A DNA stretch of 23,408 bases, taken from the IMG/VR virus record IMGVR_UViG_3300012936_000176, positions 1-23,408 of that record; one strand, given 5' to 3'. Positions within the stretch are counted from its first letter, which is position 1. The number at the start of each line of letters is the position of its first letter. The notes beneath the pieces were generated by a model. It worked only from the letters and a program-made list of their open reading frames with translations. It made no database searches and was not told the origin of the DNA. This stretch comes from a virus. Shown here piece after piece: positions 3,067 to 22,436 of the stretch. The position numbers and the translations under genes are program-made.

Positions 3067-3480
3067 GATATCGCGGTTTCTCATAAAATACAAGTTAATC
3101 AAATCTTCATTTATAGTTTCAAATGTTTTGGTGGGAGACTCAGCAGTTTCCTCAAGTCCTACATATATTGGAACTCCATTACAGTCATTTAGCAAATGAC
3201 CCAGTTCATTTGTGTTATTAGCAAAAACATTGCTATGCTCTATACTAAAATCTAAAATCCATACTGTATGTAGTCCTTTATAGCGTTTTCCAAAGCCATA
3301 TTCAACTATATCTTGTGTCATTAAACAGTAACATTGTGTTTCCAAGGGCTGACTGCGTAGCCCAATGCTTTGAATCAATGTGTTGAGATTTTGTTGTTGA
3401 TTGAACAACAACTTGTCTTTTGGAAATCTGCTGTTTGTTTGTGTAATATCTACTAAAGTAAATGCTCTATAGTGATGCAT
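3064..3480 (-). CDS. Hypothetical late protein
   Basis: A 138-residue protein of mixed alpha/beta composition with no recognised motif. Its ATG shares a base with the stop codon of the upstream gene (TAATG), so the two are translationally coupled and probably functionally linked. I do not recognise the family. Confidence 0.78.
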   Translation of the reverse strand: MHHYRAFTLVDITQTNSRFPKDKLLFNQQQNLNTLIQSIGLRSQPLETQCYCLMTQDIVEYGFGKRYKGLHTVWILDFSIEHSNVFANNTNELGHLLNDCNGVPIYVGLEETAESPTKTFETINEDLINLYFMRNRDI

Positions 3481-4328
3481 TATTTCAAGCCGCCGAGGTC
3501 ACCTGTAGCATATCTTCTTCTATTACTACCACGGTCTGTTGCTTTACCTATTGCATAACCAGCGGCAAATCCACCTGCTAGTCCAGCCGCGGCTCCCACT
3601 GCCGCTTTTCTAATACTGTCGACTCCACGCATCTTTGGTACTTCTGCATTATGTGCATTTCTAATCTCAAGTTTTTGACTACGTGCCATATCTCTAAAGT
3701 GACTGTACAATTCACTTTTCAGTGCTTTTGTTCTATAGTACTGTAGCATTCTTGTGACTACCAATTGCTTTTGCATTTTGTTGATTCTATCCCAATCTTG
3801 ACTGAGTCTGCGAATAGCTCTATAGTTACTGTTGCTAATATCTAGTCCACGTTCCAATCTCATCAAGAAGCTACGTGCATTGGATATTGGTTGTCCTTGT
3901 GCAATAGCTCTTAGATAGTTTCTCACTTGCATATCATTTACTTTGTAGTGATTGTTTTGAATTCTATCGTTTTGTGTTGTGCCAGCTGTACCATTTTTGA
4001 TTGCGTTTAGCGCAACGTATAGATCAGTGCCACTTTGTCTATATGTGTTGAAGTTACCATACTGCATGGTACGTGCCGCATAGTTTTGTGCAATTGCTCT
4101 TGTATCATAGTTTTGATACAGTATCCAAAGTGCCAGCATGTTCATCATTGCAAAGTCGCCCATTTCTCTGGCATTTGTTCCTTGCACTCTTTGTTTAGTT
4201 CTGAACATAGGACTTTCATTGAGCTCGCTGAGGAAGCCAAATTTTGGTTCTGGTGTTTCAGTCATTTCGTGTCCACCTTGTATTTCTGACCACTGACGTA
4301 GTGTATATTGTTTCTCATAGTTGCTCAT
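3480..4328 (-). CDS. Hypothetical late protein with glycine-zipper tail
   Basis: A 282-residue protein, mostly helical and rich in Arg, Asn, Gln and Tyr. Near the C-terminus (about 238-262) there is an Ala/Gly-rich small-residue stretch (AAAGLAGGFAAGYAIGKA) typical of glycine-zipper membrane-associating segments, followed by a short basic tail. This could be a membrane-interacting virion or ejected protein, which is inference. The ATG follows a late promoter at the distance expected for +1, with no Shine-Dalgarno. Confidence 0.8.
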   Translation of the reverse strand: MSNYEKQYTLRQWSEIQGGHEMTETPEPKFGFLSELNESPMFRTKQRVQGTNAREMGDFAMMNMLALWILYQNYDTRAIAQNYAARTMQYGNFNTYRQSGTDLYVALNAIKNGTAGTTQNDRIQNNHYKVNDMQVRNYLRAIAQGQPISNARSFLMRLERGLDISNSNYRAIRRLSQDWDRINKMQKQLVVTRMLQYYRTKALKSELYSHFRDMARSQKLEIRNAHNAEVPKMRGVDSIRKAAVGAAAGLAGGFAAGYAIGKATDRGSNRRRYATGDLGGLK

Positions 4329-4341: not shown

Positions 4342-5472
4342 TTACAAATTAGGACGCCATCTGTGCCTTGGCACTAGTTTGATTTTATCTCTGGTAGCAA
4401 CATATCCTTCGCCGCCGCTTTGACCTTCTGTGCTTGCTGTTACATCAGCACCAGCACCATCTAATTGGTCAATGATGTTGTTCTTTACATTTTGTATTTG
4501 CACAACAAGATCCATTATAGCATCAAAACCCTTGCTGTCCATTGCCATGAGTTTTGCTTGTTGTCCTTTGCTAACTTTACTAGTTTTTAGCCAGTTGTTG
4601 AATCCACTGCGCAATTGGTCTAGTCTACCTTGTTTGACCATTTGGTTTACATATGTGTACAGTATGCCTGCTTTGTTGCTCAATCCTTTTTCTGGAGCAA
4701 GCCAAGCGTCAATAGCACTGGCATTTGCTCTTGCATTGGTTACAATTTTTTCAACTGCACTTGTGTCTACTTTAGGTGTGTGCGTAACATATGTTTGTCC
4801 TAGCACAACAACGTCATTGCTGTTGATGCTGTCTGTATCTTTTATTGGTGTGCCTGCTTTATCTCCAAATGCATCATGATATGTGTGAACCACAACACCA
4901 ACACTACTGTTAGCCATGCGTTTACCCAAATAACTGTTGGGGTCAACTGTATACGTAACTTTGTTTGGTGTAAACTGTAGCCCTTCATTTGAACGCTGAA
5001 TAGGCTTGCGAGGTGTGTACAATAAATCTCCATACACATAGCCTCTCATATCAGCAGGAGTGTTTCTCTCTAACACCTCAAACACACCTGCCATGTCGCT
5101 AGCAAAATCTTTACGCCAATCTTCACCTTTACCGGTGTTCATAATAAAATCTGCTAGCGCACCACTGCTGGTTGATTTGTTCTTTCCCCAACCATTCTTA
5201 CCTGTCATCACAAAAGTACCGTCTGGTTCACGACCCCAAAATATTGTAGGGTTGCCATCCCATTTGATACTAACGTCTCCTGTGTCTTGACCTAGTCTTG
5301 TTAGGATAGTTGCGGCTTTGAGTGCGCCTGCACTACCATCTACAAACACTAAATCTTCTAGATGCTGATACTCTCTGCCAACATTAGCCGCCTCTGTGAG
5401 TTTTTCACAAGTACAGGGTTCGCAGTTACACTTGCCACATACCCATTCTGCTAAAAATTGACGAGCTCTCAT
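4342..5472 (-). CDS. RNA-ligase-like covalent nucleotidyltransferase with N-terminal Cys cluster
   Basis: A 376-residue protein starting at the ATG at 5472, coupled (TAATG) to the nucleotidyltransferase gene upstream. Longer readings need a TTG. Residues 12-22 hold five cysteines (CGKCNCEPCTC), a probable metal site. Motifs of the ATP-dependent ligase/capping superfamily follow: KWDG (70-73; motif I, Lys70 the expected AMP acceptor), YGDLLY (147-152; like motif III), EGYVA (355-359; motif IV) and KIK (363-365; motif V). EGYVA and KIK resemble the T4 Rnl1 motifs as I remember them. The gap between motifs III and IV is unusually long, and IV-V unusually short. I believe relatives in T4-like cyanophages are filed as DUF6267, from memory. 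Ligase activity is inferred, not established. Confidence 0.75.
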   Translation of the reverse strand: MRARQFLAEWVCGKCNCEPCTCEKLTEAANVGREYQHLEDLVFVDGSAGALKAATILTRLGQDTGDVSIKWDGNPTIFWGREPDGTFVMTGKNGWGKNKSTSSGALADFIMNTGKGEDWRKDFASDMAGVFEVLERNTPADMRGYVYGDLLYTPRKPIQRSNEGLQFTPNKVTYTVDPNSYLGKRMANSSVGVVVHTYHDAFGDKAGTPIKDTDSINSNDVVVLGQTYVTHTPKVDTSAVEKIVTNARANASAIDAWLAPEKGLSNKAGILYTYVNQMVKQGRLDQLRSGFNNWLKTSKVSKGQQAKLMAMDSKGFDAIMDLVVQIQNVKNNIIDQLDGAGADVTASTEGQSGGEGYVATRDKIKLVPRHRWRPNL

Positions 5473-6245
5473 TAGTCTAGTTCTTTCCAATTAGGATCGC
5501 TACGAAGATCTGCAAGCATTGCATCACCTGCTTCTTTACCCAATGCCGCCATAATGGCTTCAACACTGCCTATATCTTTTCCTGAGGCATTAGGGCCTAA
5601 CAAACTGCGAGCTACTTCGTCTATATCTTGTGTGATAAACTTATCCTTTTTGCCGGCTTGGTCTCTGCTGAACAATCCTTGATAGGGTGAGAACAACATG
5701 TTCTTTTGTTTTGCTAACCAAGCTAGTGCTATCATCTTGTTCACACCTTTGAACTTACTACCTTGCGGTATGCTGTGTGTGTGAAACTTGCTAGCACGTT
5801 CGGCATTGGGGACGACCATAATATCAACCTGATGAGCATGGTCGTCCATTGGGACTTTTACATGTACACTTACTCCACTCTGACCTGTCTCAAGTCCTGC
5901 CAAATCAAATAATTGTCTTAATTTTTTACGGATAACTTTTGGGTCTGTTTGATCAAAGTGCTGAGCTAGTTGATCCTGATCAACAATCATATCCAAGTCA
6001 CCACTTACTTTACCCGGAGTAGGTGTTGCACCGCTTCCAATTGGTATCGCTTGTGCATTGGCTTTTGCTAACACACCGTTGATAGATTTCATTATTCCTG
6101 GGATCATCTTGTGGTCAAAACTAATGGTATCAGGGAAAATGTTTCCACCTTCCTTGAACAAACTACGACCTCTTATTCTTTTTATACGGCTACCACGTCG
6201 TTTTCTACGCTTATGTGTCCCGCCTAGTATATCTGCTATTTTCAA
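5472..6245 (-). CDS. Pol-beta-superfamily nucleotidyltransferase
   Basis: A 257-residue protein. The start is a TTG at 6245 with AGAGGA about 9 nt upstream; no ATG occurs before residue 47, and the reading continues KIADIL. Residues 11-28 are extremely basic. The nucleotidyltransferase signature is clear: GSG at 70-72, GDLD at 82-85 (metal-binding Asp83 and Asp85) and VDIMVV with the third Asp at 141. Such enzymes transfer nucleotides to RNA, protein or small molecules. The substrate here cannot be read from sequence. The gene overlaps the upstream small gene by 35 nt and is coupled to the ligase-like gene downstream, so the two probably act in one pathway, possibly RNA end repair. Confidence 0.85.
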   Translation of the reverse strand: MKIADILGGTHKRRKRRGSRIKRIRGRSLFKEGGNIFPDTISFDHKMIPGIMKSINGVLAKANAQAIPIGSGATPTPGKVSGDLDMIVDQDQLAQHFDQTDPKVIRKKLRQLFDLAGLETGQSGVSVHVKVPMDDHAHQVDIMVVPNAERASKFHTHSIPQGSKFKGVNKMIALAWLAKQKNMLFSPYQGLFSRDQAGKKDKFITQDIDEVARSLLGPNASGKDIGSVEAIMAALGKEAGDAMLADLRSDPNWKELD

Positions 6246-6477
6246 CTTTACTAATTCCTCTTTGAAATTTCCGCGGGTCTTTAGTTCGTATGCTGTTGAT
6301 CAATCGCTTGTTTAGATCAGCCGCTGTTTCTACATCAAAACTTTCATTGATCAAGTTGATCAAATTGATGGCTGTAACTATAACTTGTTGCGCATTGGAC
6401 TCAACAATATGCTTTTTATCACGCTTGGGTGACATAGCATTTATTTCTTCCAATAATGATCTCGTTTTCCGCTTCAT
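6211..6477 (-). CDS. Small conserved T4-like phage protein
   Basis: An 88-residue protein. The start is taken as the ATG at 6477 rather than any upstream in-frame codon, because the late promoter lies between them. A central helical region (VIVTAINLINLI) is followed by ETAADLNKRLINSI and a basic C-terminus. The pattern is familiar to me from small conserved proteins of marine T4-like phages of unknown function. It heads the late transcription unit that continues into the nucleotidyltransferase and ligase-like genes, overlapping the first by 35 nt. Confidence 0.78.
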   Translation of the reverse strand: MKRKTRSLLEEINAMSPKRDKKHIVESNAQQVIVTAINLINLINESFDVETAADLNKRLINSIRTKDPRKFQRGISKVENSRYTRRDT

Positions 6478-6485
6478 CTTAGTAG

Positions 6486-6493
6486 TATTTAGT
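6486..6493 (-). promoter_or_regulatory. Late promoter, leftward arm of a palindrome
   Basis: Minus strand reads ACTAAATA, 8 nt before the ATG at 6477, giving a predicted leader of about 3 nt. It forms half of the palindrome TATTTA-G-TAAATA (6486-6498), so an equivalent box faces the other way. Confidence 0.6.
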
Positions 6494-6498
6494 AAATA
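6491..6498 (+). promoter_or_regulatory. Possible late promoter, rightward arm of a palindrome
   Basis: Plus strand reads AGTAAATA, the mirror of the leftward box. It would start transcription near 6504, 25 nt before a short plus-strand reading frame (6529-6636). Confidence 0.35.
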
Positions 6499-6528
6499 TT
6501 GTTGCTGAAGCATTGGTGACTAGCACTT

Positions 6529-11705: not shown

Positions 11706-12275
11706 TTACTGTCCTAATTGCTCACACAATAAATTCATGTGTACTACTACAACCATTGCATAGCTCACTGCGTGTGCTTTTTTGAAGTAGTATGCTTTAT
11801 TATCGTTTACGGGTTTTTTCCAAACCTCTTTCATTATCGTTGGCCACCCTTTGTCTTGTAGGTGACGTTTTGCTGGTCTGATCACTGCCAGTGTTGCCGC
11901 TAATTGTTCTACCGAGGACGGTTTCAATTGCTTCAATAGACTGTCGTGCCCGCTTAGATGAAAAAGCTGATCTACGAAGTCTTTGTGCTCCAGAAGTTCC
12001 CATAGTGGTTCCCTTTCCATTAGTTGTGTTAAATGTTTGTCATCTACAACATCTTTATAGATGCTGAGATTCAGCAGATCCAACTTGAAAAAGCCCATGT
12101 TGTCTGCTTCGCTGTGTTCAACTGTACACACACTGGTGAATGGATTACTAGGTACTTTGTGAAAGTAGACACCTGTATTATGTTTTCTATTCTTTAATCT
12201 GGCTGGTACATGTTTGAATAACTCTAGTGCTTGCTGTCTATCAGCAAAGTCAATGTCAATATCAGGTAGTCCCAT
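11706..12275 (-). CDS. Miniature DnaE-like (Pol III alpha) polymerase core protein
   Basis: A 189-residue protein aligning with separate blocks of bacterial DnaE. PDIDIDF (4-10) matches PDFDVDF with two catalytic Asp (7, 9). HNTGVYFHKVP (32-42) matches the STHAAGVVI block. MGFFKLDLLNL (60-70) matches the GLVKFDFLGL block with the third catalytic Asp (66). The stretch from about 100 to 134 (LFHLSGHDSLLKQLKP, then LAVIRP) matches VFQLESRGM..LIKRLQP..ALFRP. FKKAHAVSYA (164-173) matches FNKSHSAAYAL. A bacterial DnaE has more than 1,000 residues. Here the PHP domain, the palm stretch between the first two blocks, and the beta-clamp and OB parts are missing. AGGAG precedes the ATG. It overlaps the zinc-finger gene by 14 nt. 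Activity is unknown. Confidence 0.8.
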   Translation of the reverse strand: MGLPDIDIDFADRQQALELFKHVPARLKNRKHNTGVYFHKVPSNPFTSVCTVEHSEADNMGFFKLDLLNLSIYKDVVDDKHLTQLMEREPLWELLEHKDFVDQLFHLSGHDSLLKQLKPSSVEQLAATLAVIRPAKRHLQDKGWPTIMKEVWKKPVNDNKAYYFKKAHAVSYAMVVVVHMNLLCEQLGQ

Positions 12276-18204: not shown

Positions 18205-18279
18205 TGGCACCGGTGGGAGGAATCGAACCCCCGCTTTCAGTTTTGGAGACTGCTGTGCTACCATTATCACTACACCGAT
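18205..18279 (-). tRNA. tRNA-Trp (CCA)
   Basis: Cloverleaf seen on the minus strand: acceptor ATCGGTG with CACCGGT, T-arm with TTCGATT loop, anticodon loop CTCCAAA (anticodon CCA), discriminator G and an encoded CCA end. The top base pair of the anticodon stem is mismatched. Confidence 0.9.
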
Positions 18280-18284
18280 ACATG

Positions 18285-18374
18285 TGGCGGACGGACAGGG
18301 ATTCGAACCCTGGGAGGAGTTGCCCCCTCAACACCTTAGCAGGGTGCCGCTTTCGTCCACTCAGCCACCCGTCC
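18285..18374 (-). tRNA. tRNA-Ser (GCT)
   Basis: Long-variable-arm tRNA: acceptor GGACGGG with TCCGTCC, anticodon loop CTGCTAA (anticodon GCT, AGY codons), variable stem GAGGGGGCAACTCCTC, T loop TTCGAAT, encoded CCA. It lies 5 nt upstream of tRNA-Trp. Confidence 0.92.
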
Positions 18375-18386
18375 TAATTAATAATT

Positions 18387-18414
18387 ATAATAAACTATAC
18401 AGAAAATAAGTCAA
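18387..18414 (-). promoter_or_regulatory. Sigma-70-type promoter for the Ser-Trp tRNA pair
   Basis: Minus strand: TTGACT (18409-18414), 16-nt spacer, TATTAT (18387-18392), 12 nt ahead of the tRNA-Ser 5' end. It overlaps the 3' end of the upstream gene. Confidence 0.65.
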
Positions 18415-18631
18415 CCTGTTTTGTGTATTTTCTCACAGTTTCTTTGGTCATTACTCCGTTGAGCCAATTTTGTGCGGCATCAACTACGTAACTGCGACTT
18501 TTGTTGGGATATTCTATTCTACCAACAACTTTTTCGTCTTCAAAAAAACTGCACATTAGATATTCATCATCTACAAAACTAATCACAGCCAGTTTGTTAT
18601 CCCGTTCAAAACGATTGTAATAATCAGTCAT
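18395..18631 (-). CDS. Small conserved phage protein
   Basis: A 78-residue protein, with strands first (LAVISFVDDEYLMCSFFED) and then a helical C-terminus (SYVVDAAQNWLNGVMTKETV). The layout is familiar from unknown small proteins of T4-like marine phages. It overlaps the upstream paralogue gene by 8 nt, and its 3' end holds the tRNA promoter. Confidence 0.75.
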   Translation of the reverse strand: MTDYYNRFERDNKLAVISFVDDEYLMCSFFEDEKVVGRIEYPNKSRSYVVDAAQNWLNGVMTKETVRKYTKQVDLFSV

Positions 18632-19376
18632 CTATCCACTCCATGCTTACAATGTAATTGTATTGCTCTATTGTTTTATTCAACTCTGGTTTTGTTGCAT
18701 CAAGTTCACCTATCTTGATATGCTTGTCAAACCAACAGTTTTGTGATTGAATGTCGAACCCTCGACTTTCAAGTTCAGTTTGGTTAGCTTGTAACCATCT
18801 TGTTTCATCTTCATTGCGAACGTTTCTTGATTGTGTGTTCAATACCATGTCAATATTTAGAAAAGGACTCACATACAATTTGTCTCTTGGTACAATTTTA
18901 TCAATACTTGTGGCATCAGGATTGCGATATGCTTGGAAAATATGTGTGCTTTCGTCATTCAATCTTAGATTTTGATCAACGTCTTTGGTTTCCAAATACA
19001 ACTGTCCAAAGTCTCTGCCCCAAGTGTTGTCAAAGTCTGCTTCCACATATTCTTGTAGTTCAATATCAGGATCCAACAATCCAATTGTATCATTTTTGAT
19101 TAGATAATTGTGTAAATTAGGAATCAATTTGAATGGATGTTTGTTGCATCTAATAAAATTCAAGTATGGTCCTTGTTGTAAATTCTTAATTGTTTGCAAA
19201 TATGCACTCACACAAGGTTTGTCCAACATGGTCCATGTTATAGTGGCTTTGGGTTCACTGTTGGCATACAAATTATATTCCCAACTGCGGTGCCCATCTT
19301 CTTTATTGATGTGCAGTTCCATGCCAGTCTGTTGCTGATCATCTATTTCGTCGCTAAATCCAATTTGTAGTTTCAT
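18624..19376 (-). CDS. Hypothetical protein, paralogue of the upstream gene
   Basis: A 250-residue protein starting at ATG 19376, which overlaps the upstream stop (ATGA) and gives the same N-terminus, MKL-x-(I/F)G, as its neighbour. Both proteins share the order: MKL start, W-(E/N)-Y-N-L near residue 35, a PNL/PNF region, a KLY(V/M)(S/P) strand in the middle, and a C-terminal segment (GFDIQ..., K-I-x-I-G-E...). No known family is recognised. Confidence 0.78.
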   Translation of the reverse strand: MKLQIGFSDEIDDQQQTGMELHINKEDGHRSWEYNLYANSEPKATITWTMLDKPCVSAYLQTIKNLQQGPYLNFIRCNKHPFKLIPNLHNYLIKNDTIGLLDPDIELQEYVEADFDNTWGRDFGQLYLETKDVDQNLRLNDESTHIFQAYRNPDATSIDKIVPRDKLYVSPFLNIDMVLNTQSRNVRNEDETRWLQANQTELESRGFDIQSQNCWFDKHIKIGELDATKPELNKTIEQYNYIVSMEWIDD

Positions 19377-20155
19377 TCTATGCTCCAAGTTGCCCTTGTA
19401 ATGTATCTATTATTGCCAAGTTTGTTTACCACTTGTTTGTAATTTTTACATTCGCCTATTAGGATCTTTCTTTGAACTTCATAGTACAATCTTTCTGATG
19501 TAAATCCTAGGTCCAAAAACTGTTGTTCGTATCTAGTTGTGGGTAGATCTTCTAACTGTGTTTGCTTGTTGTACTTATCAGGCGAAATAGGAAACCTCAA
19601 ATCCAAATAAAATTCACCACGAACTAAATCAGGATAATAGTGAGGCACATTCTGTTCGTCCCACTTGCTCAAATACCATTGATTCAGTGCTACACCGTCT
19701 GGTTCCAGTCTATAGTCTCGAGTGTATATAGGAAACAATGGCATGTACAGTTTGCCAGGTTCTGTGGTGTAGCGCACATTGTCTAAATCCTGTTCAGTTG
19801 TGTCAGGCAACTCAATTGTTGGCACATAGTCATCCTGCTGAATGGTGTGCAAGATGGGAATGTAATCAAGTCTCAACAGTGTATCATTGAAATTTGGTAA
19901 CCATACATTGGGTTGGTGTGACAGTCCACACATTTTTAGATGAGGTTTTTGTATAAGTTTATGAATTATTGGAAGTATATTTTTTATACAAGGCAAATCA
20001 TACAGTTCGTATTCAATGCTGATTTTTTCTCTGTCAAACTCTTGACGCTTGAGATTGTAGTTCCAATATTCTTTTTCCGTGACATCTTCAATTAGCTTGA
20101 GATCACCATGTAAATCTTCTTGTAATTGATCTGTTAGTCCGAAAGTTAATTTCAT
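19373..20155 (-). CDS. Hypothetical protein, first of a tandem paralogue pair
   Basis: A 260-residue protein. The start is set at the ATG at 20155. An in-frame ATG at 20191 lies inside tRNA-Leu and is not credible. Only six bases (CTAATC) separate the tRNA CCA from this ATG, so processing of the tRNA would leave an almost leaderless mRNA. The sequence is related to the following gene (see its shared blocks, such as KLYMPLF / KLYVSPF and LIGE / KIGE). Function unknown. Confidence 0.78.
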   Translation of the reverse strand: MKLTFGLTDQLQEDLHGDLKLIEDVTEKEYWNYNLKRQEFDREKISIEYELYDLPCIKNILPIIHKLIQKPHLKMCGLSHQPNVWLPNFNDTLLRLDYIPILHTIQQDDYVPTIELPDTTEQDLDNVRYTTEPGKLYMPLFPIYTRDYRLEPDGVALNQWYLSKWDEQNVPHYYPDLVRGEFYLDLRFPISPDKYNKQTQLEDLPTTRYEQQFLDLGFTSERLYYEVQRKILIGECKNYKQVVNKLGNNRYITRATWSIE

Positions 20156-20161
20156 GATTAG

Positions 20162-20246
20162 TGGTGCCCATGGAGGGATTTGAACCCCCACTCTATAAAG
20201 AACAGGTACCTAAAACCTGCGTGTCTACCAATTTCACCACATGGGC
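20162..20246 (-). tRNA. tRNA-Leu (TAG)
   Basis: Acceptor GCCCATG with CATGGGC, anticodon stem CAGGT/ACCTG with loop TTTAGGT (anticodon TAG, CUA codons), long variable arm, T loop TTCAAAT, discriminator A and encoded CCA. Confidence 0.92.
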
Positions 20247-20253
20247 TATTTGA

Positions 20254-20478
20254 TTATGGCTTTTCAGCCGAATAAGTAAAAAATTTATCTAGCATTTCCA
20301 GGCGATCGTAAGCCGCCGCCATTTTGTCTAGCTCTGCAATAACTGCTTCAGTTACGTCACTGTGTTCCCCAATACCGGCTGGCATAGTCTTGTAGACTTC
20401 GATGTTGGCTTTGTGTACAGCCATTTCACCTTCTGCTTGCTTTCTTGCGGCTTCAATAATTGCGTCTCCTGCTTTCAT
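20254..20478 (-). CDS. Small helical protein
   Basis: A 74-residue protein rich in Ala, Glu and Lys, nearly all helical by composition (AGDAIIEAARKQAEGEMAVH). AGGAG precedes the ATG. It ends 7 nt before tRNA-Leu, downstream of the membrane protein gene in the same leftward unit. Function unknown. Confidence 0.7.
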   Translation of the reverse strand: MKAGDAIIEAARKQAEGEMAVHKANIEVYKTMPAGIGEHSDVTEAVIAELDKMAAAYDRLEMLDKFFTYSAEKP

Positions 20479-20499
20479 ACTATTCTCCTTTATTTTTAC

Positions 20500-20997
20500 T
20501 TATTCGTGTTCGCCACCTGGATCATTGGCATCCAGTTGTACTTTTTTTCCGTTGATCCACATGTTTTGTCTTGTGCGACTCAATGTGTGATAACCGTTTT
20601 TTAGATCGAACATTTCTGGTTTACGTTTGGCTGTTTCAAACGTACCCACTGTTACCGCAATGGCTCCCAGCAATGCCACGTGAATGATAGCACTGATACC
20701 AAATACGGTCCAGCTACCAACAATAAATGCAAATGTAATGCACCACATCCATGCAAGTACTTGCATGAGTAGGTGTCTAACTTGTAGGTCCGGAATGTTA
20801 CTCAGTGGATTCTTATCATAATCCATTACTGCATTCCAATTGTCATATACCCATTCTCTCATATCTTTTACCTTCTCGAATGTTACGTGTTTAGGATAGT
20901 GAGCATCTGCACTGTCTCTGAAATCAATAGCATCATATATGTCGTGAAACTTTTGCGACACTTTATAATCTTTGAAAAAGGCAGTTACTCTATACAT
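20500..20997 (-). CDS. Two-TM membrane protein
   Basis: A 165-residue protein. I choose the ATG at 20997 with GGGGAG upstream; an ATG at 21027 would start inside tRNA-Thr. The N-terminal 70 residues are soluble and charged. Hydrophobic segments lie at about 76-97 and 100-119 and form a hairpin, and a hydrophilic tail follows. No family recognised. It is the first protein gene after tRNA-Thr and shares its promoter. Confidence 0.75.
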   Translation of the reverse strand: MYRVTAFFKDYKVSQKFHDIYDAIDFRDSADAHYPKHVTFEKVKDMREWVYDNWNAVMDYDKNPLSNIPDLQVRHLLMQVLAWMWCITFAFIVGSWTVFGISAIIHVALLGAIAVTVGTFETAKRKPEMFDLKNGYHTLSRTRQNMWINGKKVQLDANDPGGEHE

Positions 20998-21013
20998 AGT
21001 TGCTCCCCAATAG

Positions 21014-21089
<76 letters not shown>

Positions 21090-21095
21090 TTTACT

Positions 21096-21125
21096 ATAAT
21101 ATAATATTCCTGTTTGTTTTGTCAA
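21096..21125 (-). promoter_or_regulatory. Sigma-70-type promoter for tRNA-Thr and following genes
   Basis: Minus strand: TTGACA (21120-21125), then TATTAT at 18 nt or TATATT at 16 nt. It ends about 7 nt before the tRNA-Thr 5' end and overlaps the region just past the TIM-barrel-type gene. Confidence 0.65.
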
Positions 21126-21130
21126 GATAT

Positions 21131-22258
21131 TTAGTCCCATTTTTTATACCATGTGCTAATTAAATCTTCTGCAGGCTTGCCTCTGACGTTAGCACTTTTA
21201 TTGTACAGACTGTCATTTTTATCTTGTGTTGTAAAAAGGTCATCTCTTAGATGATATCCCCAACTGTTGAGTCCTTGTACAAAATCAAATCGATTCACTG
21301 CATCAATTGCAATTTGGTATGCTTGTTTTTGTAGTTGTAAATCAATTTCAGTTGTGGGTGCTATACTGCCACAGGGTACACAAGGTTCAATATAACGAGT
21401 GTGTGCCACTGATTGTACTACACTAGGCGTGGTCACCATAAGCACAACACTTTTATCATAACGAGCAAATCGTTTGAGGTTTCTACTGAAGTCAGGTTCA
21501 ACAGGATCTTGCACTATAAATCCTATGTAATCAAATTGGTCAAATAACTTTTTACGAGCTTGCTCACCTTGATAATGACTGGTAGCATCAAATGCACTGT
21601 GCATTTCACTGGTGTCAAGTTCAGCATAATAACCTAGTTTACCCTTGTATACTTGTCTAACTTCATGTGCAAGTTTTTGCCAATAGTCAACTGCAACACG
21701 AATTTCATATACATTATTGTATCCAATGCTCAGTCTTTCCACACCAAGTGCTTGTGCCATACGAGCTCTTTTGACAATCAATTCACCCATGCTGGCAAAA
21801 TAACTGTCCCAAAATACTGTATCATCAATTGACCTTTCACTGAGTGTTTTGTTCCAATCACGTGTGCTGAACAATTGAATAATTATTTCTGTTTGTAATC
21901 CTTTGCTTTTTGCATCTTGTACCAGTACAGGATAATCACTGGCAGTGGGACTCATTGCCCAGTCGTGAGGATCAAATGCAATGTCAACTGTATCTTCTGC
22001 ACGTTTGATCCACAGTGTATCAATCAGTGTTACTGTGTTTGCATCAACAACTTCACTGAGTCTTGTGAATGTATTCTGATATGTTCCCTCTTTCATCAAT
22101 CTAGTATGATATCCGCCAACATCATGAATAGTAATACTTTGCATGATATCAGCATGTGCCGGAGCGCATGCCGTGATTGAAAATAATGCCGCAAGTATTG
22201 GAGCGGGTAACCGGAATCGAACCGATGTCTTTGGCTTGGAAGGCGATTGTAATACCAT
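21131..22258 (-). CDS. Exported TIM-barrel-type glycoside-hydrolase-like protein
   Basis: 375 residues if read from the ATG at 22258, which lies inside tRNA-Gly. That start gives a convincing export signal: basic N-region (KPKTSVRFR), hydrophobic core (PILAALFSITA), then either a lipobox (ITAC, Cys31) or an APAHA signal-peptidase site at residue 36. No other ATG precedes the mature part, which begins DIMQSITIHD. The mature protein alternates strands and helices like a (beta/alpha)8 barrel, and its C-terminus (GKPAEDLISTWYKK) resembles GH113-like/GH5-like glycosidases as I recall them. Catalytic acids cannot be assigned. It could act on the host envelope or exopolysaccharide. This would be unusual in an early tRNA-rich region. 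Confidence 0.7.
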   Translation of the reverse strand: MVLQSPSKPKTSVRFRLPAPILAALFSITACAPAHADIMQSITIHDVGGYHTRLMKEGTYQNTFTRLSEVVDANTVTLIDTLWIKRAEDTVDIAFDPHDWAMSPTASDYPVLVQDAKSKGLQTEIIIQLFSTRDWNKTLSERSIDDTVFWDSYFASMGELIVKRARMAQALGVERLSIGYNNVYEIRVAVDYWQKLAHEVRQVYKGKLGYYAELDTSEMHSAFDATSHYQGEQARKKLFDQFDYIGFIVQDPVEPDFSRNLKRFARYDKSVVLMVTTPSVVQSVAHTRYIEPCVPCGSIAPTTEIDLQLQKQAYQIAIDAVNRFDFVQGLNSWGYHLRDDLFTTQDKNDSLYNKSANVRGKPAEDLISTWYKKWD

Positions 22259-22272
22259 TATACTATACCCGC
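22199..22272 (-). tRNA. tRNA-Gly (TCC), weak anticodon stem
   Basis: Acceptor GCGGGTA with TACCCGC, anticodon loop CTTCCAA (anticodon TCC), T-arm ATCGG-TTCGATT-CCGGT, discriminator T and encoded CCA. The anticodon stem has only three of five pairs (mismatches at 27-43 and 29-41). Sixty bases of the gene double as the first 20 codons of the exported protein. Confidence 0.82.
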
Positions 22273-22275
22273 ATT

Positions 22276-22352
22276 TGGAGTGGGTGACTGGATTCGAACC
22301 AGCATAACACGGATTTGCAATCCGGCCCGTAACCGATTCCGGGCACACCCAC
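22276..22352 (-). tRNA. tRNA-Cys (GCA)
   Basis: Acceptor GTGGGTG with CACCCAC, D-arm CCCGGAATCGGTTACGGG, anticodon loop TTGCAAA (anticodon GCA), T loop TTCGAAT, discriminator T and encoded CCA. Three bases upstream of tRNA-Gly. Confidence 0.88.
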
Positions 22353-22358
22353 AAAAAT

Positions 22359-22436
22359 TGGCCCACTCTACAGGACTCGAACCTGTGACCTACGGTTTAG
22401 AAGACCGTTGCTCTAATCCAACTGAGCTAAGAGTGG
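22359..22436 (-). tRNA. tRNA-Arg (TCT)
   Basis: Acceptor CCACTCT with AGAGTGG, D-arm GCTCAGTTGGATTAGAGC, anticodon stem ACGGT/ACCGT with loop CTTCTAA (anticodon TCT, AGA codons), T loop TTCGAGT, discriminator G and encoded CCA. Confidence 0.92.

Follow-up and report, generated by a model that had tools for sequence, protein, structure and literature searches.

The window analysed here, the whole 23.4-kb stretch (23,408 nucleotides) of virus record IMGVR_UViG_3300012936_000176, is a fragment of a phage genome with genes mostly on the minus strand. Two of these genes, P0002 and P0001, lie directly one after the other (Table 1). P0002 encodes 257 amino acids from a TTG start; relatives use the same start position with ATG, GTG or TTG. 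P0001 encodes 376 amino acids. Its frame is open from a TTG at 5490, six codons before the ATG at 5472, and the ATG was taken as the start because relatives carry a stop codon between the two. With this correction the genes overlap by one base, as TAATG, and the two coupled open reading frames (ORFs) of a preliminary description of the locus are indeed present. That description had called them a Pol-beta-type nucleotidyltransferase and a ligase-like protein, which proved right at the superfamily level. The motifs GSG, SGDLD and VDIMVV of P0002 and KWDG, YGDLLY, EGYVA and KIK of P0001 were found where it had placed them and are conserved far beyond chance.

P0001 is a member of the Pfam family DUF6267 (PF19782), with an E-value of 1.8e-32 and 113.6 bits against a gathering cut-off of 27, and corresponds to phrog_455 and to T4-GC71 of cyanophages. 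The Pfam and PHROGs entries assign no function, and DUF6267 was named in no paper of the literature library searched. The alignment comprised 109 rows, the window plus 108 sequences from a non-redundant DUF6267 set of 115; excluded were L002, whose sequence equals that of the window, and L095, L142, L186, L223, L227 and L228. K70, W71, D72, G73, K92, G148, D149, E355, G356 and K365 were invariant in all rows, down to those with 20% identity to the window. From its spacing, K92 might be guessed to be the counterpart of ligase motif Ia. The preliminary description had pointed to Lys70, Glu355 and both lysines of KIK; the first two and K365 were invariant, but K363 was present in only 21 of the 109 rows. 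The long region that separates motifs III and IV, which it had regarded as unusual, measured 206 residues in P0001 and is partly helical; it is a trait of the whole family (median 244, range 206-251). Outside the aligned set the motifs were softer, the Vibrio phage protein NVP2275O_191 (E 1.5e-54) having KYDG and QAD.

The AlphaFold model of P0001 had a predicted local distance difference test score (pLDDT) of 90 and was confident except for the first 30 residues. Both the Foldseek list and the VIA re-alignment were headed by ligases, and the best-ranked of these were RNA ligases. The top match in VIA was the Naegleria RNA ligase (Z 6.8, 190 residues, 4.9 A), followed by REL1 (Z 5.7), human LigIV (5.6), fungal Trl1 (5.5), T4 Rnl2 and T7 DNA ligase (both 5.3) and T4 Rnl1 (5.2). 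P0001 matched neither the DNA ligase family PF01068 nor the RNA ligase family PF09414 in Pfam at E-values up to 0.1, and both were absent from the 25 Pfam families listed for the 109 relatives. A sequence search against the PDB gave three matches (best E 0.043), each of them to a helical protein with no relation to ligases, and a further PDB sequence search matched nothing relevant. Motifs and fold taken together indicate that P0001 very probably belongs to the covalent nucleotidyltransferase (ligase/capping) superfamily, a membership that does not tell a DNA from an RNA substrate.

P0002 was modelled with a pLDDT of 87, its first 33 residues being disordered. Foldseek matched it to DNA polymerase lambda (E 1.3e-8, probability 1.00) and VIA to polymerase beta (Z 12.5, 181 residues aligned, 4.1 A). 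The structural match spans palm and thumb only, with neither a lyase nor a fingers domain; the disordered tail of about 33 residues before the palm leaves no room for a lyase domain. Lyase and fingers domains are found in Pol beta but not in all members of family X. S81, G82, D83, D85, D89 and D141 were invariant in all 45 relatives compared. P0002 matched no Pfam family at E-values up to 0.01, and one of the 45 relatives touched DNA_pol_B_palm (E 0.053). Pfam families of RNA-repair nucleotidyltransferases, RlaP included, were matched by none of the relatives at E-values up to 0.1, an absence that is no proof at such sensitivity. A sequence-level search against the PDB gave no match, and neither did tblastn against the phage collection, yet homologues in the phages PA5oct and Phosso were found by profile alone. 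On the strength of the model, P0002 very likely has a Pol X-like fold.

The two genes also occur together in related phages, a point that the preliminary description had proposed to check. Among 234 DUF6267 loci, a count that includes overlapping loci of one contig (e.g. L060/L164, L084/L188) and the window itself (L001), a P0002-like gene was adjacent in 93 and a nucleotidyltransferase of the HIGH type lay within 4.5 kb in 100, while 41 had neither and none had both. Restricted to the 126 loci whose flanks reach at least 1 kb upstream and 3 kb downstream, the respective numbers were 53, 59, 14 and 0. One of the four seeds of the HIGH-type profile (L083) was in the wrong frame and junk; in an independent check of six proteins from HIGH-type loci, every one gave a PF01467 match, with E-values from 5e-8 to 0.046, and three exceeded the Pfam cut-off. 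Counted by contig, 11 of 20 carried the Pol X-like gene, 8 PF01467 and one neither, and again none had both. In the DUF6267 neighbourhood the two kinds of partner are mutually exclusive. An exclusion over whole genomes was dropped: a 335-kb relative (L254, G021:C57; filed in a marine metagenome-assembled genome), which carries both genes with a P0001 62% identical to that of the window, contains further HIGH-family genes outside this neighbourhood. Three changes of the Pol X-like label are required on the tree of DUF6267, at least two of them forced by well-supported branches, and two HIGH-type rows (L079, L167) fall inside the Pol X-like clade.

The HIGH-type domain is fused to DUF6267 in S-PM2 and L232, and at several loci it shares a protein with Pol-beta-type nucleotidyltransferase, kinase, PAP2 or ParB-like domains. 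A 913-amino-acid protein near DUF6267 (L141:6183-8921) combines a P-loop kinase, a Pol-beta-type nucleotidyltransferase motif and a HIGH-type nucleotidyltransferase, and has the capsid-targeting-like N-terminus MKFKEFLLQE. In L137, L148 and L167, proteins beside DUF6267 are HIGH-type partners fused to PAP2 or ParB-like domains; this spot therefore seems to gather multi-domain, possibly injected proteins. Upstream of DUF6267 in L082 (4151-4930) lies P-TIM40_181, a protein of 259 amino acids that is nuclease-like by eye and has kin in ten phage records. More distant pairs were seen in two other phages. In Phosso, the genes ph446, which is ligase-like by motifs, and ph447, which matched the P0002 profile (E 1e-9), overlap and are followed by ph448, a homologue of the window gene at 3480-4328. 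In PA5oct, gp253 is a homologue of P0002 (profile E 1.6e-8), and gp256 is ligase-like by motifs with weak profile support (motifs IV-V only, E 0.0065; HHalign E 0.0037, probability 9); both are downstream of a helicase gene. The pair is less sure in PA5oct than in Phosso. The PA5oct proteins gp258 and gp257, considered as P0002 and P0001 homologues from their position and ESI-MS/MS annotation, were rejected, as neither matched the profiles.

The internal proteins of T4 enter the head by means of 10-19 N-terminal residues, which are cleaved off after L/I-X-E (PMC9026906). T4 IPII and IPIII start with MKTYQEFIAE/A (the slash follows the Glu of the motif) and fit this pattern; IPI does not. DUF6267 proteins of the window clade begin with MRANQFLTE/A, MKARQFLAE/A and alike, and P0001 itself with MRARQFLAE. 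The signal pattern, which was written after the N-termini had been inspected, occurred in 19 of 21 distinct DUF6267 N-termini of the window clade, compared with 4 of 151 genes of the 133-kb contig G001 (one of them DUF6267 itself) and 0.45% of shuffled N-termini. In P0001 two L-x-E sites, E9 and E27, flank the Cys cluster. This cluster had been noted earlier and is present, but it is not a family trait: a Cys stretch between two L-x-E sites was seen in 4 of 109 P0001 relatives, and a conserved zinc site was rejected on this count. In both P0001 and the window stretch 2000-2389, Cys-rich segments lie close to an N-terminus with the form MK/R..D/Q.L. HIGH-type partners carried the signal in 45 of 80 distinct ORFs, compared with 30 of 732 control ORFs (Fisher p 5e-32), when any ATG in the first 40 codons was allowed for families and controls, and for HIGH-type partners also those before the HIGH motif; several of the misses deviate solely at the second residue. 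P0002 and its kin end their N-terminal tail with xxE/GG[NK] in 43 of 45 cases, and in 37 of the 45 the position two residues ahead of the Glu is L or I.

The contig or record that carries the pair also encodes an S77 prohead protease in three cases: the 335-kb relative, where it is of the T4 type and accompanied by a gp23 capsid gene, PA5oct and Phosso; none was found in the 133-kb relative. The record of PA5oct gp253 reads 'structural protein' with the note 'ESI-MS/MS'. T4-GC190, a 'putative citidylyltransferase', was detected in purified S-SM1 virions (Sullivan et al. 2010, PMC3037559). It corresponds to SSM1_190, which starts with MKKFSAFLNE/A and overlaps the end of SSM1_189, the DUF6267 protein (T4-GC71) of that phage. 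The MIJ3 paper, in the part available, names four major proteins only. Two further genes of G001 (L238-L244), at 109535 and 111645, start with MKTFTEYLKEG and MKSLKQYLAES and may encode packaged head proteins. At least one of the proteins P0001 and P0002 is probably packaged in the virion, and the signals suggest that both could be. An earlier remark that the proteins are perhaps packaged is thus well supported by the capsid-targeting-like N-termini and the virion proteomics of relatives.

The reading tentatively preferred here, with a chance slightly short of even, is that P0002 and P0001 are a virion-delivered pair for gap filling and sealing, and that their substrate is DNA rather than RNA. 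The two proteins would be made together with the virion proteins, taken into the prohead by their short N-terminal signals and trimmed after L/I-x-E by a T4-type prohead protease. They would be carried in the virion and ejected along with the genome. P0002, a family X palm and thumb with no lyase domain, would add missing nucleotides in short gaps. Sealing of the nick would fall to P0001, by way of a lysyl-nucleotide at Lys70, and would precede the expression of any phage gene. Ligase activity of P0001, polymerase activity of P0002, the DNA substrate and the repair purpose are all predictions of this model. DNA is favoured because of the polymerase fold of P0002 and the neighbouring genes, which are primase and helicase in the window and gp43-uvsX-gp41 in cyanophages.

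Several observations weigh against this model. The structural evidence for P0001 is weak: ligases head the lists, but the best Foldseek E-value against the PDB was 0.6 and the best VIA Z of 6.8 is under the caution line of 8 of that tool. In motif III of DUF6267 all 109 rows show Asp where Glu is usual, just one motif V lysine (K365) is kept, and no OB domain was identified in P0001. The DUF6267 protein itself was not reported from a virion in the parts of the literature covered, PA5oct gp256 is not marked in its record as detected by mass spectrometry, and no such N-terminal signal was present in PA5oct gp253 or gp256 or in cyanophage DUF6267 proteins. Window-clade relatives also encode a separate PF01068 DNA ligase (the 335-kb relative and one 56-kb contig; 2 of 5 clade records). 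Finally, P0002 is replaced elsewhere by HIGH-type partners, enzymes that do not fill gaps. Gap filling does not explain the switch. That the HIGH-type partner activates 5' ends is a loose idea.

Repair of RNA, in which P0002 would restore nucleotides at cut tRNA ends and P0001 would seal them to counter host anticodon nucleases, perhaps after delivery by the virion, is a less likely alternative. RNA is favoured as the substrate because P0001 comes closest in fold to RNA ligases (Naegleria Rnl, REL1, Trl1) and because known phages pair RNA ligases with RlaP of the Pol-beta family (PMC7824862). The seven tRNA genes of the window and the kinase domain fused to the HIGH-type partner in L141 fit as well. 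Set against these are the resemblance of P0002 to DNA polymerases beta and lambda, the missing Pfam matches of its relatives to RNA-repair nucleotidyltransferases (E up to 0.1), and the replication genes nearby, primase and helicase here and gp43-uvsX-gp41 in cyanophages. Repair of cut tRNAs, which the preliminary description had suggested, accordingly found no specific support.

A role outside repair is less likely still. The ejected proteins would then alter a target in the host or the virion (protein nucleotidylation, end capping or tagging), and Pol X-like and HIGH-type enzymes would stand in for each other as donors of the nucleotide. This would suit two unrelated nucleotidyltransferase folds sharing the partner position with at least two switches on the tree, as well as HIGH-type partners that are joined to PAP2, ParB-like and kinase domains in multi-domain proteins, and T4 Alt is a precedent of an ejected modifying enzyme (PMC9026906). 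A Pol X-type thumb fold and ligase motifs, however, jointly indicate polynucleotide substrates, and the near-universal presence of DUF6267 in T4-like cyanophages suits a core role rather than an arms race. Very improbable is the reuse of both enzyme folds as inactive structural or scaffolding parts of the head. The gene in front of P0002 does belong to a virion structural family and the P0002 homologue of PA5oct is a virion protein, but all expected catalytic residues are invariant even in rows that are only 20% identical.

The distribution of DUF6267 bears on its possible role. In a tblastn search 470 phage records were matched, of which 370 were named Synechococcus, 61 Cyanophage and 24 Prochlorococcus (455 together); a tail sheath query used for comparison matched 378 records named Synechococcus and 61 named Cyanophage. 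Among T4-like cyanophages DUF6267 is nearly universal. According to the available part of a survey, most phages of the P-SSM2 subgroup are without any known DNA ligase (PMC7824862). PF01068, PF01653 and PF09414 were absent from all four complete cyanophage genomes tested (P-TIM40, S-PM2, P-HM1 and S-SM1). Elsewhere, T4 and the Vibrio phage had PF01068 and PF09414, PA5oct PF01068, and Phosso PF01653 and PF09414. DUF6267 is therefore a candidate for the missing ligase of the cyanophages, and giant phages would have it as an extra enzyme. The idea that it is the sole ligase of the window clade was dropped on account of the PF01068 genes mentioned above; in the 133-kb contig of this clade no PF01068 ligase was found.

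Taken to its full extent, the proposal reads that DUF6267 is a new ligase family and the missing ligase of T4-like cyanophages, that in the window clade it forms together with a minimal family X polymerase a packaged gap-repair kit for the incoming genome before phage expression, and that HIGH-type enzymes are an alternative, end-activating partner. As a whole this is speculative and rather doubtful. If DUF6267 is a ligase, the cyanophage ligase gap becomes directly testable, and if the pair is packaged, some phages bring a polymerase and a ligase into the cell along with their DNA. No phage example of the latter was found in the literature searched.

The cluster with P0002 and P0001 starts with a gene whose longer ORF (6211-6513), upstream of P0002, matched phrog_11854 with an E-value of 1.5e-17. 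The 335-kb relative, L078 and Phosso have homologues of the gene that follows P0001 next to the pair (blastp E 2e-21 to 2e-26). Primase and helicase genes also adjoin P0001 and P0002 in the window. The helicase is 52% identical to that of PA5oct-like jumbo phages (PA5oct, MIJ3, Paride), and the tail sheath of G001, which bears the same pair, is 44% identical to the sheath of these phages. The genome that hosts P0001 and P0002 looks like that of a marine giant phage. The sequence TAAATAC occurred on the minus strand at 1309, 2684, 4333, 6485 and 10560. Each of these five copies is on the coding strand and is followed by an ATG at a distance of 4 to 25 bases. This copy number does not exceed chance expectation (4.3). 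At three of the five sites the distance to the ATG is only 4-7 bases, very close for a -10-type element, so that almost no leader would be possible there if these were promoter elements.

Seven tRNA genes (Trp, Ser, Leu, Thr, Gly, Cys, Arg), the number given in the preliminary description, lie at 18205-22436, and several of them overlap long predicted ORFs. A 189-amino-acid piece encoded at 11706-12275 resembles part of a DnaE-type polymerase. Phosso has a gene of similar size at the matching place, annotated as DnaE-like DNA polymerase III alpha, and PA5oct gp264 is similar.

Table 1. Features of the P0002-P0001 locus, in positions of the window.
Feature	Position	Strand	Basis
P0002, family X polymerase-like nucleotidyltransferase, palm and thumb	5472..6245	-	translation, model, Foldseek, VIA
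Disordered basic N-terminal tail of P0002 ending F-K-E32/GG, possible propeptide	6150..6245	-	pLDDT of tail under 50
SGDLD, residues 81-85 of P0002, predicted first two catalytic carboxylates	5991..6005	-	S81, G82, D83 and D85 in 45/45
D141 of P0002, predicted third carboxylate	5823..5825	-	45/45
P0001, DUF6267 covalent-nucleotidyltransferase (ligase-like) protein	4342..5472	-	PF19782, start from relatives, model, VIA
Capsid-targeting-like N-terminus of P0001, residues 1-27	5392..5472	-	clade pattern; disordered in model
Motif I KWDG, residues 70-73 of P0001, K70 predicted lysyl-nucleotide site	5254..5265	-	109/109
Motif III GDLL, residues 148-151 of P0001	5020..5031	-	G148 and D149 in 109/109
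Motif IV EGYV, residues 355-358 of P0001	4399..4410	-	E355 and G356 in 109/109
Motif V lysine K365 of P0001	4378..4380	-	109/109
First gene of the cluster, phrog_11854 'virion structural protein' family, ATG 6477	6211..6477	-	start by position
Late-promoter-like TAAATAC before the cluster	6485..6491	-	putative, sequence only
Conserved third gene, after P0001	3480..4328	-	blastp homologues

In comparison with known systems, P0001 is of the same family as DUF6267 (T4-GC71) of cyanophages, while the window clade differs by its capsid-targeting-like N-terminus and by a Pol X-like instead of a HIGH-type partner. With the ligase-capping superfamily (Naegleria Rnl, T4 Rnl1 and Rnl2, T7 DNA ligase) P0001 shares the order and invariance of motifs I, III, IV and V; it differs by the Asp in motif III, the single motif V lysine, the partly helical stretch of 206-251 residues and the missing Pfam ligase match. 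P0002 has the palm, the thumb and the catalytic Asp triad of the family X polymerases Pol beta and Pol lambda, but consists of the catalytic core only, with a long basic disordered tail and no lyase domain. In African swine fever virus a minimal polymerase of family X occurs together with a ligase, with a presumed role in genome repair; this virus is unrelated to the phage of the window, and its ligase is of another family than P0001. The pairs of RlaP and RNA ligase in phages likewise place an enzyme of the Pol-beta superfamily beside a ligase (PMC7824862), whereas the fold of P0002 matches DNA polymerases and no RNA-repair nucleotidyltransferase family of Pfam was matched. With T4 IPII, IPIII and Alt P0001 shares a short N-terminal signal ending in L/I-x-E, and an S77 protease is present in relatives, but the cargo of the window resembles a polymerase and a ligase.

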